DNA of 41,121 nucleotides, taken from Aequorivita sp. Its GTDB lineage: Bacteria; Bacteroidota; Bacteroidia; Flavobacteriales; Flavobacteriaceae. The translations under genes and the position numbers were made by a program. This document shows, piece by piece, positions 849-29,648 of the stretch; position 1 is the stretch's first letter, and each line of letters opens with the position of its first letter. Location: assembly GCA_026646335.1 (NCBI GenBank), contig JAPKFY010000011.1, positions 1-41,121 on the forward strand, given 5' to 3'. The notes beneath the pieces are model-generated. The model searched no databases, had not been told where the DNA came from, and saw only the letters and a list, made by a program, of their open reading frames with translations.

Positions 849-3800
849 CTATTGGCTTTCAATCCACTCCCGGGCATTGACCAAGGCTTGAACCCAAGGC
901 GAAACTTCGTCATTCATTCGGTCTTTTGGATAATACGCCCAGTTCCAGGGAAAGGTAGAGCGCTCCAAATGCGGCATCATCACCAAATGTCTTCCGGTTT
1001 TATCGGTCATCATTGCGGTGTTGAAATCACTGCCGTTTGGATTTGCGGGCAGGGCATCGTAGCCGTATTTTGCGACAATGTTATAATGGCTTTCCCCTTT
1101 TGGGAAACTGAATTTTCCTTCCCCGTGTGCAGACCAGATTCCCAACGTACTTCCCGCAAAAGAGGAAAGCATCACAGAATTGTTCTCCTGAATTTTTACG
1201 GAAGTAAAAGTACATTCAAACTTGCCAGTATCGTTGTGAAGCATTTTCGGCTTTTCTTCATCTTCTGGATTGAGCAATCCAAGTTCCACAAAAAGTTGGC
1301 AACCGTTACAAACCCCAAGTGAAAGCGTATCGTCTTTTGCAAAGAAATTCCTTAAAGCGGTGTTGGCTTTTTCGTTGTATAAAAACGCGCCGGCCCAACC
1401 TTTCGCACTGCCCAAAACGTCGCTATTACTGAAACCACCAACGGCAACAAGCAATTTAATGTCTTCTAAATCTTCACGACCTTCAATAAGATCGGTCATA
1501 TGCACATCTTTCACATCAAACCCTGCAAGGTGCATCATATAAGCCATTTCGCGCTCGCTGTTGCTTCCTTTTTCGCGGATAACTGCTGCTTTAGGTCGAG
1601 ACGAACCGTTCTCGACTGCGCTCGAACTGACAGGAAGTTTTCCAGTGAAATTTTTCGGAAACTCAAACTTTAACGGCTGATTTTTATAATTATCAAAACG
1701 CTCTTTTGCAAGCGTTGCTCCACTTTGGTTTCTATCTAACAAATACGAAGTTTTGTACCAAGCATCGCGCATTTCAGCAATGCTAAAACTAAGTTCTTCG
1801 GAATTATTCTTTATTGAAAGCGTTTCATTTTCTGAAACAGTTCCAATCTTTTTAAAATCTATATTTTTTGAAGCAAGTAATTTTTCAACCGAAACATCTT
1901 CCGACGCTTGAATTACAACCCCTGCATTTTCAGCAAATAATAATTTCACCAAATCCCTTTCACCTAAACCTGAAAGGTCTAAGTTGGCGCCCAAATTCAC
2001 ATCGGCAAAACACATTTCCAGCAAAGTGGTAATAAGTCCACCCGAAGCAACATCGTGCCCCGCGAGTATTTTGCCGTCTTTAATCAATTCCTGTAAAGTG
2101 TTGAAAACGGTTTTAACGTAAGCTGCACTTTTTACATCTGGCGCTTCGTTTCCGATGGCATTCAATATCTGCCCAAAAGAGGAACCGCCCAATTTAAAGT
2201 CGTCCTGCGAAATATTGATGTAATAAATACTTCCGCCGTTTTTCTGAAGAACTGGTTCTACCACTTTCTTAATATCATTACAGTTTCCAGCTGCAGAAAT
2301 AATCACGGTTCCGGGAGAAATAACTTCACCATCTTTGTATTTCTGCTTCATTGAAAGCGAATCTTTTCCGGTAGGAACGTTGATTCCCAGATCGATTGAA
2401 AAGTCTGAAACAGCTTTTACGGCTTCGTAAAGTCTGGCGTCTTCGCCTTCGTTGTTACAAGGCCACATCCAGTTTGCGGAAAGGGAAATACTCTTTAAAC
2501 CATCTTTTAGTGGGGCCCAAACAATATTGGTCAAAGATTCGGCAATTGCGTTTCGGGAACCTGCAGCGGGGTCAATTAAAGCCGTCAATGGAGAATGCCC
2601 GATACTCGTTGCAACGCCTTCCTTTCCGTGGTAATCCAGTGCCATTACACCGCAGTTATTTAGCGGCAGTTGCAACGGACCAGCAGTTTGTTGCTTGGCA
2701 ACGCGCCCCGTTACACAGCGGTCCACTTTATTGGTAAGCCAGTCTTTACAGGCTACCGCTTCCAGTTGAAGCACTTGCGTTAAGTATTCTTTTATTTTTG
2801 AAACCTCATAATCAGGATTTTTATAATTCCTGCGTATGGTTTTATCGACCATTACTGTTTTTGGGGAGCTGCCAAACATATCCTCCAAAGCGAAATCCAT
2901 AGGTTTCTCGCCATTTTTATTTTCAAAACAGAAACGTTGGTCGCCCGTTACTTGCCCCACTTCGTACATTGGGGAACGCTCACGGTCTGCAACTTTTCTC
3001 AGTTTTTGAATGTGTTCATCATTAATAACCAATCCCATGCGCTCTTGACTCTCGTTGCCCATTATTTCCTTTGCGGATAGGGTAGGGTCGCCAATGGGAA
3101 GTTTATCCAGTTCAATTCGTCCGCCGGTTTCTTCCACCAATTCGCTTAAGCAATTTAGATGTCCTCCAGCCCCGTGATCGTGAATGGAAACAATTGGGTT
3201 TTCATCGCTTTCAACCATTGCGCGAATGGCATTTGCAACTCGTTTTTGCATTTCGGGGTTGCTGCGTTGAATAGCGTTCAATTCAATTCCGCTGTGAAAT
3301 TCACCGGTATCTGCCGATGAAACTGCGGCGCCGCCCATGCCAATTCGGTAGTTATCGCCACCTAAAACAACTATTTTATCGCCTTCCTGTGGTTTGCCTT
3401 TTATGGCTTGGCTCGCTTTTCCGTAGCCAATTCCGCCTGCGAGCATAATTACTTTATCAAAACCTAAACGGCGAGCATCCTCTTCGTGTTCAAAGGTTAA
3501 AACAGAACCGGCAATCAAGGGTTGTCCAAATTTATTTCCAAAATCGGAAGCGCCATTACTTGCTTTTATCAAAATATCAAGCGGCGTTTGGTATAACCAA
3601 TCTCTTTCTTTCATCGCTTTTTCCCAGGGACGCTCTTCATTCAATCGAGAATAGGAAGTCATATAGACCGCAGTTCCCGCCAAAGGCAATGAGCCTTTTC
3701 CACCAGCCAAACGGTCGCGGATCTCACCACCGCTTCCAGTTGCGGCACCGTTGAAAGGCTCCACGGTTGTTGGGAAGTTGTGCGTTTCAGCTTTTAGTGA

Positions 3801-4538
3801 AATCACACTTTCAAAATCTTTTTCTACGTACCAATCGGGTTTGTCGCCACTTTTTGGTGCCCATTGTTTCACTTTTGGGCCTTTTACAAAAGCTACGTTG
3901 TCTTTATAAGCAGAAACAATATCGTTCGGGTTTTCTGCAGAGGTCTTTTTGATTAGTTTGAATAGGGAAGAGGGCATTTCTTTGCCGTCAATTTCAAAAA
4001 CCCCGTTAAAAATCTTGTGGCGGCAGTGCTCGCTGTTCACTTGGCTAAAGCCGAAAACTTCGCTGTCGGTAAGTTTTCTGCCCAGTTTTTCCGAAAGATT
4101 GTCCAGATATTCCACTTCTTCAGCATTGAGCGCCAAGCCTTCTTTTTGGTTGTACTCTGAAATATTTTCAATTTCTAAAATGGGTTCTGGCTGGATGTGG
4201 ATATCAAAAATATCTTGATCCAATTCCTTGAATTTTTGGGAGAGCATTGTGTCAAAAGTTCCCTTTTCAACAGTGCTATTGTGAAACTCCTCGATGCGGA
4301 TGATTCCATCGATGCCCATATTTTGGGTAATTTCCACAGCATTGGTGCTCCACGGAGTAACCATTACGGCGCGTGGGCCAATAAAAAAATCCACCGTGTT
4401 TGTGGACAGGGCGGATTGCGCTATTTTAGGTTGGTTGCCGAAAAGCCACTCCAACTTTTTAATGTTTTCTTCTGAAATATTTCCGTGGGTTTGGACTGCA
4501 AAGACAGTGTTTTCAACGTTCCCAAAAAAGTGAATCAT
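849..4538 (-). CDS. purL: Phosphoribosylformylglycinamidine synthase (FGAM synthase), large single-chain form
   Basis: This enzyme of de novo purine synthesis converts FGAR, glutamine and ATP to FGAM in the cytoplasm. At 1229 residues it is the long single-chain form (E. coli PurL is about 1295). In order it has a short N-terminal PurS-like region, the linker and synthetase part with SQVNSEHCRHKIFNG (~res 165-180) and KAETHNFPTTVEPFNGAATG, two AIRS-like halves, and a C-terminal class I glutamine amidotransferase. The glutaminase triad is visible: nucleophile Cys1077 in LGVCNGCQLF, and His1190 and Glu1192 in MMPHLERS. The ATG at 4538 is the first in-frame start and lies 64 bp downstream of a TACCTTTG -7 box. 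Oddity: residues 969-982, between synthetase and glutaminase domains, are encoded by a repeat-like palindrome (separate entry). Its leader carries a hairpin also found at fumC. Confidence 0.97.
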   Translation of the reverse strand: MIHFFGNVENTVFAVQTHGNISEENIKKLEWLFGNQPKIAQSALSTNTVDFFIGPRAVMVTPWSTNAVEITQNMGIDGIIRIEEFHNSTVEKGTFDTMLSQKFKELDQDIFDIHIQPEPILEIENISEYNQKEGLALNAEEVEYLDNLSEKLGRKLTDSEVFGFSQVNSEHCRHKIFNGVFEIDGKEMPSSLFKLIKKTSAENPNDIVSAYKDNVAFVKGPKVKQWAPKSGDKPDWYVEKDFESVISLKAETHNFPTTVEPFNGAATGSGGEIRDRLAGGKGSLPLAGTAVYMTSYSRLNEERPWEKAMKERDWLYQTPLDILIKASNGASDFGNKFGQPLIAGSVLTFEHEEDARRLGFDKVIMLAGGIGYGKASQAIKGKPQEGDKIVVLGGDNYRIGMGGAAVSSADTGEFHSGIELNAIQRSNPEMQKRVANAIRAMVESDENPIVSIHDHGAGGHLNCLSELVEETGGRIELDKLPIGDPTLSAKEIMGNESQERMGLVINDEHIQKLRKVADRERSPMYEVGQVTGDQRFCFENKNGEKPMDFALEDMFGSSPKTVMVDKTIRRNYKNPDYEVSKIKEYLTQVLQLEAVACKDWLTNKVDRCVTGRVAKQQTAGPLQLPLNNCGVMALDYHGKEGVATSIGHSPLTALIDPAAGSRNAIAESLTNIVWAPLKDGLKSISLSANWMWPCNNEGEDARLYEAVKAVSDFSIDLGINVPTGKDSLSMKQKYKDGEVISPGTVIISAAGNCNDIKKVVEPVLQKNGGSIYYINISQDDFKLGGSSFGQILNAIGNEAPDVKSAAYVKTVFNTLQELIKDGKILAGHDVASGGLITTLLEMCFADVNLGANLDLSGLGERDLVKLLFAENAGVVIQASEDVSVEKLLASKNIDFKKIGTVSENETLSIKNNSEELSFSIAEMRDAWYKTSYLLDRNQSGATLAKERFDNYKNQPLKFEFPKNFTGKLPVSSSAVENGSSRPKAAVIREKGSNSEREMAYMMHLAGFDVKDVHMTDLIEGREDLEDIKLLVAVGGFSNSDVLGSAKGWAGAFLYNEKANTALRNFFAKDDTLSLGVCNGCQLFVELGLLNPEDEEKPKMLHNDTGKFECTFTSVKIQENNSVMLSSFAGSTLGIWSAHGEGKFSFPKGESHYNIVAKYGYDALPANPNGSDFNTAMMTDKTGRHLVMMPHLERSTFPWNWAYYPKDRMNDEVSPWVQALVNAREWIESQ
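1595..1634. repeat. REP-like palindromic element translated inside purL
   Basis: An imperfect hairpin (arms 1595-1603 and 1607-1616, one bulged base) is followed by CTGCGCTCGAACTGACAG. On the purL strand it reads CTGTCAGTTCGAGCGCAG and then the hairpin. From memory, TCAGTTCGAGCGCAGTCGAG-type strings recur between genes in many flavobacterial genomes; no search was run. It encodes PurL residues 969-982 (PVSSSAVENGSSRP), a low-complexity linker just before the conserved start of the glutaminase domain (AAVIREKGSNSE). Confidence 0.6.
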
Positions 4539-4567
4539 TCTTTTGAATATTAGTTCATTATTGAAGT

Positions 4568-4594
4568 TTCACCTTCGCCAATAGCTTCGGTGAA
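4568..4594 (-). promoter_or_regulatory. 5'-leader hairpin of purL (same element as in fumC leader)
   Basis: On the purL strand the leader reads TTCACC, then GAAGCTATTGGCGAA, then GGTGAA. The outer arms form a perfect 6-bp stem. Inside are symmetrical GAA/GAA strands and a short apical GC..GC stem. The fumC leader at 29266-29293 has the same interior (GAAGCCTTGGCGAA) but different arms, which also pair perfectly. It starts 8 nt downstream of the -7 box, so it should be at or very near the 5' end of the mRNA, 29 nt before the purL start codon. Confidence 0.6.
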
Positions 4595-4602
4595 TAAAGG
4601 TG

Positions 4603-4633
4603 CAAAGGTAACCAAATTTAAAATATTTTAAAT
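4603..4633 (-). promoter_or_regulatory. purL promoter with 18-bp perfect palindrome
   Basis: The minus strand carries TACCTTTG at 4610-4603, a perfect match to the Bacteroidota -7 element TAnnTTTG. A TTG lies too far upstream (25-bp spacing) to be a normal -33 element. Instead, the AT-only 18-bp perfect palindrome ATTTAAAATATTTTAAAT (4616-4633) fills the space upstream of the -7 box and could be an operator or a UP-like tract. Confidence 0.6.
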
Positions 4634-29205: not shown

Positions 29206-29244
29206 TGTTAAAGTGTTTATTTTTAAGTTATTTACGCTTCTTGA

Positions 29245-29256
29245 CCAAAGCTTTGG
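29245..29256. repeat. 12-bp perfect palindrome in the fumC leader
   Basis: CCAAAGCTTTGG is self-complementary over 12 bp. It lies in the untranslated leader of fumC, between the 5' hairpin and the start codon, 40 bp upstream of the ATG. Confidence 0.6.
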
Positions 29257-29265
29257 AACTTTTTG

Positions 29266-29293
29266 GAACTCCTTCGCCAAGGCTTCGGAGTTC
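29266..29293 (-). promoter_or_regulatory. 5'-leader hairpin of fumC (same element as in purL leader)
   Basis: On the fumC strand: GAACTCC, then GAAGCCTTGGCGAA, then GGAGTTC. The outer arms pair perfectly over 7 bp, GAA faces GAA, and GCC pairs with GGC around TT. It starts 5 nt after the -7 box, so it should form the first bases of the mRNA, 60 nt before the ATG. Confidence 0.6.
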
Positions 29294-29298
29294 GTAGG

Positions 29299-29329
29299 CA
29301 AAGGTACGGAAAAGCCAAAAGTTGTTCAA
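29299..29329 (-). promoter_or_regulatory. fumC promoter
   Basis: TACCTTTG at 29306-29299 and TTG at 29329-29327 are separated by 20 bp, a good Bacteroidota -33/-7 promoter. A 12-bp near-palindrome, AGCCGCACGGCT (29329-29340), touches the -33 element and could be an operator. Confidence 0.65.
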
Positions 29330-29599: not shown

Positions 29600-29620
29600 T
29601 TTCAAACTGAAATATATTTA

Positions 29621-29648
29621 AAAAGGGAACCAAATTGGTTCCCTTTTT
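29621..29648. terminator. Intrinsic terminator after the 55-residue protein gene
   Basis: A perfect 12-bp stem (AAAAGGGAACCA with TGGTTCCCTTTT) with a 3-nt loop is followed by seven T in total. The A run on the other side may let it stop the converging outer-membrane protein gene as well. Confidence 0.88.

Follow-up and report, generated by a model that had tools for sequence, protein, structure and literature searches.

Hairpins at the predicted mRNA starts of purL and fumC in an Aequorivita genome appear to be copies of a dispersed REP-like repeat

Our results are best explained if the hairpins in the leaders of purL and fumC are copies of one dispersed short palindromic, REP-like repeat of Bacteroidota. 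In the reading that we favor, to which we assign a probability of roughly 0.7, this element settles on the 3' side of pyrimidine tracts, among them the one preceding the transcription start, and would thus become the 5' end of the mRNA. Both hairpins lie in the window analyzed here, a stretch of 41,121 nucleotides (contig JAPKFY010000011.1) from the 3.05-Mb draft genome of an Aequorivita sp. (GCA_026646335.1; 163 contigs), whose PurL has its closest named relatives in Aequorivita species (86-91% identity). The original prediction, made from the letters of this window alone, had taken the two hairpins for a conserved leader structure of several possible roles, an interpretation that is partly supported by the present analysis. 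The features concerned are the following:

849..4538, minus strand: purL, phosphoribosylformylglycinamidine synthase, the gene downstream of the first hairpin (open reading frame; NCBIfam NF003672 over cut-off)
4567..4595, minus strand: purL leader hairpin, arms TTCACC/GGTGAA around GAA-GC-TATTG-GC-GAA (sequence, fold, models R1 and R2)
4596..4602, minus strand: pyrimidine-rich 7-nt spacer CACCTTT between the -7 box and the purL hairpin (sequence)
4603..4610, minus strand: purL -7 promoter box TACCTTTG (sequence; consensus TAHHTTTG from PMC6847099)
27820..29205, minus strand: fumC, class II fumarate hydratase (NCBIfam TIGR00979, 774 bits, over cut-off)
29266..29293, minus strand: fumC leader hairpin, arms GAACTCC/GGAGTTC around GAA-GC-CTTG-GC-GAA (sequence, fold, models R1 and R2)
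29294..29298, minus strand: 5-nt spacer CCTAC between the -7 box and the fumC hairpin (sequence)
29299..29306, minus strand: fumC -7 promoter box TACCTTTG (sequence)

Both hairpins are present on the minus strand where they had been placed, as borne out by the sequence itself, by shuffling and by recovery with a model built only from copies outside Aequorivita (R2). They have one core, GAAGC-loop-GCGAA with a loop of 4-5 nt, and differ in their arms, each pair of which is complementary, confirming the predicted combination of a nearly identical interior with differing but pairing outer arms in purL as well as fumC. In the purL hairpin, ATTCACC-GAA-GC-TATTG-GC-GAA-GGTGAAA (4595-4567, minus strand), the outermost A/A is unpaired and pairing extends from 4594 to 4568; the interval 4568-4610 originally given is thus correct and spans the hairpin plus the box. 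The gap between TACCTTTG and the hairpin amounts to 7 nt in purL and 5 nt in fumC, in line with the proposed 5-8 nt. The purL hairpin has a minimum free energy of -10.8 kcal/mol (z -3.46), a value reached by none of 200 shuffles, and that of fumC one of -13.2 kcal/mol (z -2.62; 4 of 200 shuffles equally low). Model R2, built without either copy, scores fumC at 45.3 bits (E 3.5e-13) and purL at 28.3 bits (E 2.8e-7), with an E-value of only 0.39 for the third-ranked match in the window; the corresponding scores for model R1, which includes both as training copies, are 45.5 and 35.9 bits. A first core pattern, searched with up to 3 mismatches, returned the purL copy as its sole match in the window, but by itself it is weak evidence, because 26 of 100 shuffles also contained at least one match. 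A known RNA family was ruled out for the two hairpins, as Rfam produced no window match at gathering score and the E-value matches around the hairpins lay far below it.

Two further structures were noted in this region. The fumC leader contains, at 29236-29265, a second, decayed core-like hairpin after the first, an arrangement resembling a tandem duplication that is also seen in three gdh leaders (L346, L358 and L361). In addition, positions 29620-29648 of the window contain an inverted repeat, AAAAAGGGAACCAA/TTGGTTCCCTTTTT, whose 14-bp arms match perfectly across a gap of 1 nt and which is perhaps a two-way terminator.

The two hairpins belong to a larger family. Its members are about 28 nt long: complementary arms of 6-7 nt, which vary in sequence, enclose a symmetric internal loop (GAA/GAA), an inner stem of 2-3 bp and a short loop. 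The pattern CCGAAGN{2,8}GCGAAGG has 8 matches in the source genome, three of which are leader hairpins (purL, fumC and argS), as compared to a single match for the reversed pattern. Similarly, a stricter TCC-core-GGA pattern occurs at 18 places in 9 out of 149 genomes from the host's family, with only one match for its reversed version. Moving outward from TCC/GGA, where the pattern set no constraint, the first, second and third positions are paired at 18, 18 and 16 of these places and the fourth at only 6, as in a bounded stem whose letters are freely chosen. Model R1 was built from 23 copies, comprising 16 of the 18 pattern places (the other two being repeats) and seven leader copies, whereas R2 comprises 25 copies from outside Aequorivita, 12 contributed by the pattern and 13 by R1 itself, so that its letters are new although its route of discovery was not wholly independent of R1. 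R1 was applied to 150 candidates per genome, out of some 1300-2900 from a first look. All 28 Aequorivita genomes contained matches at E≤1, from 1 to 50 in each, against an expectation of about one by chance. The source genome has 25 of them, 15 with E<1e-3. Of the 296 Bacteroidota genomes sampled, 39, counting the source genome, have matches at E≤1e-4. R2 likewise recovers argS, leuS, lspA, gdh and further leaders. Searches of the open PMC literature, including searches for core words in both orientations, returned no description of this repeat family; the thousands of REP-like sequences that RepRanger tabulates in two Flavobacterium genomes (PMC12306157) may include relatives.

The position of these copies relative to promoters was analyzed for 82 Aequorivita loci (60 stretches around high-ranking R1 places and 22 others), from which 88 of 104 copies were retained at a threshold of at least 25 bits, a high-scoring sample that includes some of the training copies of R1. 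A sense TAHHTTTG box ends 4-7 nt before 34 of the 88 copies (5 nt in 28 cases, 7 nt in five and 4 nt in one); in three other copies the gap is 13-15 nt, and single copies have gaps of 17, 32 and 53 nt. Thus, 28 of the 37 boxes found within 15 nt lie at a gap of exactly 5 nt. No box on the opposite strand reads into any of these hairpins within 25 nt, the nearest being 26 nt away. Once merged across clusters, the 4-7 nt class represents nine sites, at eight of which a gene was identified: fumC, purL, argS, leuS, gdh (Glu/Leu/Phe/Val dehydrogenase), lspA, a gene for a cysteine-synthase-like PLP enzyme and an HD-domain protein gene that starts about 170-190 nt beyond its hairpin; at the ninth (L195), a downstream gene was not found. 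Since the last six of these genes carry like leader hairpins, the link through fumarate that had been proposed for purL and fumC is superfluous. Of the 15 source-genome matches with E<1e-3, seven stand 5 or 7 nt after a box, and another is located further down the ychF leader.

Clustering of the sites yielded 52 groups, 14 with a promoter box and 38 without one in reach. This grouping is rough: argS and the cysteine-synthase-like gene are each split over two clusters, one fumC copy is merged with another site and one in-gene match with a promoter cluster, and the gaps in three of the 14 promoter clusters are 13-15 nt. The condition that the original prediction had named as its refutation, copies spread without regard to promoters and orientation, thus had a mixed outcome: most clusters have no box in reach, but the boxes that stand just upstream of copies are in sense and at a near-fixed distance. 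Among the copies shown from outside Aequorivita, few follow a promoter box; isolated ones stand 7 nt after it before purL (L377, genome G475) and before another gene (L379, genome G476). The core of one gdh leader (L359) seems to be reversed (GGCGCTTCGCC), its spacing from TATATTTG being close to that of the other leaders.

REP-like repeats are mostly treated as intergenic elements. In Aequorivita, copies occupy intergenic DNA and terminator-like hairpins that have a T run behind them, and they also lie within long open reading frames, in sense as well as antisense (seven and six copies, respectively, in frames of at least 300 codons). The terminator-like members L175, L196 and L188 have the form ACCCTCC-core-GGAGGGT, followed by TTCTTTTTT or a similar sequence. 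This form is located upstream of a conserved MKLAL[IV]GATGMVG gene in several Aequorivita genomes (L196, L188, L220 and, for L175 and L294, G000:C112:1348-1376). The uvrA gene contains copies in frame, with the hairpin encoding a peptide such as SSEALAKEG. Among 26 displayed sequences (L407 and L415 left out), a stretch of the UvrA interaction domain comprises 20 residues in 14 cases and 27-30 residues in 12, an in-frame difference of 7-10 codons that may reflect either a gain or a loss. The hairpin is still visible in three of the 12 long forms, translated as PSPSEASAKEG or similar. Extra segments of about 7-10 codons are seen in L405, L406, L409 and L408; the last of these, from the source genome, is a long form lacking a recognizable core and may be a decayed copy. 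The LeuS protein of the source genome (L304) has a proline/glycine-rich stretch, NPSPSGGGQEGD, at residues of about 27-37, which is maybe another small in-frame repeat insertion.

Comparison of orthologous leaders shows that the hairpin is present in some and absent from others. In purL, 5 of the 16 leaders analyzed (source included; a 17th locus, L047, left out) are intact, one is disrupted and 10 have no hairpin; relatives of the latter kind have a short leader that contains a similar tract, for instance TTTGCACCTTCAAAAATG. For argS, 23 of 28 leaders were analyzed: 11 are short (17-21 nt) and all hairpin-less, while the other 12 measure 53-119 nt, some with the hairpin and others without. 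The fumC leaders (15 of 18 analyzed) include intact, decayed and absent forms. We count the absence of the purL, argS and fumC hairpins from many species against our preferred reading, as we do the lack of any observed transposition event; the boundaries at hairpin-less sites are too diverged to define a target duplication such as a MITE would have. Nevertheless, among the options that had been listed for the two hairpins, a mobile palindromic repeat near promoters fits best, given its dispersed copies, its presence or absence between orthologs and its in-frame copies in genes. Such differences between close species also allow paired comparisons of the same gene.

The sequence at the upstream edge of the copies suggests where they settle. 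In Aequorivita, at least four of the five upstream bases are pyrimidines in 33 of the 34 promoter copies and in 33 of 52 distinct contexts of non-promoter copies, as compared to 69 of 260 background 5-mers, and the 5' pyrimidine words CCTTC, CCTTT and CCCTC are common to both groups. Outside this genus, the preference is weak (9 of 28 versus 39 of 168), a point against our reading. As like tracts are present in purL and uvrA orthologs without the hairpin, the tract is more likely a target of the repeat than part of its cargo, judging from these sequences.

Taken together, these findings are consistent with a model in which the repeat would be inserted as a unit beside short pyrimidine tracts. 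One such tract would be available between the TAHHTTTG box and the start, so that sense copies may land or persist there, with the base of the hairpin at or next to +1. In Flavobacterium johnsoniae, many transcripts have their first nucleotide 4 or 5 nt beyond the -7 element (PMC6847099), and a hairpin at 5 nt would therefore leave only 0-1 free nucleotides. By this comparison, the purL and fumC transcripts are predicted to start at their hairpins, and the mRNAs of these genes, of argS, leuS, gdh and lspA and of others would begin with a hairpin and almost no free 5' nucleotides. The RppH enzyme of Bacillus subtilis requires at least two unpaired 5' nucleotides (PMC3997798), and stabilizing 5' stem-loops of papA and ompA mRNA are named in titles cited by the same paper; protection of the 5' end would therefore be the likeliest role of the hairpin, if it has one. 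By analogy with Escherichia coli and B. subtilis, a 5' hairpin would hinder attack by RppH, RNase E or RNase J and lengthen the life of the mRNA, which could explain the continued pairing of +1 copies at some genes.

A function in the leader cannot be read from covariation alone. The covariation originally noted between the two hairpins is real, but its use as the mark of a leader structure is not upheld: the score is 0.473 for the first set, 0.455 for 104 Aequorivita matches and 0.473 for the set from outside the genus, and the 18 pattern places, which are free of the partial selection for pairing that affects copies found with R1, covary equally well. Covariation thus characterizes the repeat as such, not its leader copies in particular, and by itself is no proof of leader function. 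More informative is the retention of pairing at individual genes. For gdh, at least five of seven fixed-register positions are still paired in 17 of the 26 leaders analyzed. With the leaders aligned by the promoter box alone, 4.65 of 7 positions are paired, as against 3.62 (sd 0.19) after arm swaps, and none of 2000 swaps reached as high a value, a result that was likewise obtained for 17 distinct leaders without an intact core (0 of 2000) and for 15 representatives under 70% identity (0 of 2000). A tree of 22 gdh genes has 9 paired double changes versus 1-5 for slid partners; its 17 broken pairs fall inside the 14-24 of slid partners and argue against strong retention. The swap test is weaker elsewhere (fumC, 31 of 2000; argS, 135 of 2000), and while the fumC and argS trees have five paired double changes each, versus 0-4 for slid versions, their 23 and 21 breaks exceed those of every slid version and speak against retention. 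Pairing retention across leaders is therefore modest. Template-switch repair acting on quasi-palindromes could likewise preserve the match between arms.

These data bear on a purely selfish origin, in which the open complex would expose single-stranded pyrimidine-rich DNA before +1 and the leader copies would have no function, an explanation that we consider a serious contender, if somewhat short of even odds. It would account for the copies in long reading frames in both orientations, the pyrimidine words common to promoter and non-promoter copies, the frequent absence or decay of the hairpin among orthologs, the equally strong covariation away from promoters and the many broken pairs on the gene trees. 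However, it does not readily explain that gdh leaders stay paired after the core has lost its intactness, or that the 5-nt gap recurs with a precision tighter than a variably placed tract would require. The gdh swap test makes a leader function of the hairpins plausible. It is thus tempting to speculate that a mobile repeat was delivered into promoter open complexes, on the non-template strand just before +1, and co-opted at Aequorivita housekeeping genes as a cap-like 5' hairpin setting mRNA stability, although we regard this full scenario as rather unlikely. If it were true, mobile DNA would serve as a movable RNA-stability part. The near-fixed box distance, found in one orientation at nine sites, offers a natural setting in which to test what guides short repeats to their sites and whether they are converted into RNA leaders.

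Less probable still is that the hairpins are a functional 5' leader element of Aequorivita, such as a stabilizing hairpin or protein site, which arose convergently in place, with the dispersed copies forming a separate, similar family. The near-fixed spacing, the sense orientation and the promoter-anchored pairing at gdh are compatible with this idea, as are two differences between the groups: position 3 of the outer arm is A/T in 13 of the 14 promoter clusters and C in 28 of the 38 others, and a YGTC start is absent from all 14 promoter clusters and present in 12 of the 38 others; counted over all 88 copies, YGTC is seen in 14. Yet the outside-genus model R2 recovers fumC with 45.3 bits, and the same core and 5' pyrimidine words occur in both groups, which suggests one origin for both. 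Ordinary intrinsic-terminator or attenuator hairpins, finally, are hardly tenable as an explanation, because the purL and fumC hairpins, unlike the terminator-like family members mentioned above (L175, L196 and L188), lack a following T run and begin 5-7 nt after a promoter box.

The means by which the proposed REP-like repeat might be mobilized were sought among Y1 transposases, and this search found no mobilizer. Two genomes rich in the repeat (G152, 31 matches; G181, 28 matches) have no Y1/RAYT (PF01797) match at all, and two others (G150 and G157) have seven Y1 matches and seven repeat copies each. Around Y1 genes, R1 gave three weak matches at 2 of 30 loci (best E 0.0028). A RAYT or IS200-type mobilizer was rejected, since copy number shows no link to Y1 genes and R1 matches near them are few and weak.

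Among known repeats, the CGTC-tagged REPs, which include Neisseria dRS3 and Rickettsia RPE-4/RPE-6 (Di Nocera et al., 2013; PMC3733652), come close: as described there, they are short imperfect palindromes in many copies, have Bacteroidetes among their phyla, lack a dedicated transposase and occur in ORFs, traits that match what is seen here. Their account gives them a CGTC, TGTC or CCTC end tag, an unpaired CCA tail, a stem of 8-9 bp that begins with a complementary A and T, and a loop of 4-5 nt (PMC3733652). By contrast, the repeat described here has an inconstant YGTC start, as counted above, arms of 6-7 bp, a GAA/GAA internal loop and an inner stem of 2-3 bp, a variable stem base without the constant A/T, and a clear class at predicted transcription starts. 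Base composition over the 4 nt that follow the hairpin shows no constant CCA. With GTAG REPs and their RAYTs, it has in common a palindrome of 20-40 bp, sometimes clustered, with variable arms, whereas GTAG occurs within -6 to +5 of the hairpin in only 2 of the 88 copies and copy number shows no link to Y1_Tnp genes; in L217/L233, GTAG lies inside a paired arm. Because tag and stem traits are lacking or inconstant and no link to Y1 transposases was found, the repeat fits neither the GTAG nor the CGTC group cleanly, but resembles REPs and Rickettsia palindromic elements. The latter are larger than the repeat of about 28-30 nt studied here. Like them (named in PMC3733652), it is present in frame in a conserved protein, in this case UvrA. 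In its predicted position at or next to the mRNA 5' end, the hairpin also recalls the stabilizing 5' stem-loops of ompA and papA in E. coli; those, however, belong to single genes and have measured effects, whereas here one repeat family occupies nine promoter sites with predicted starts.
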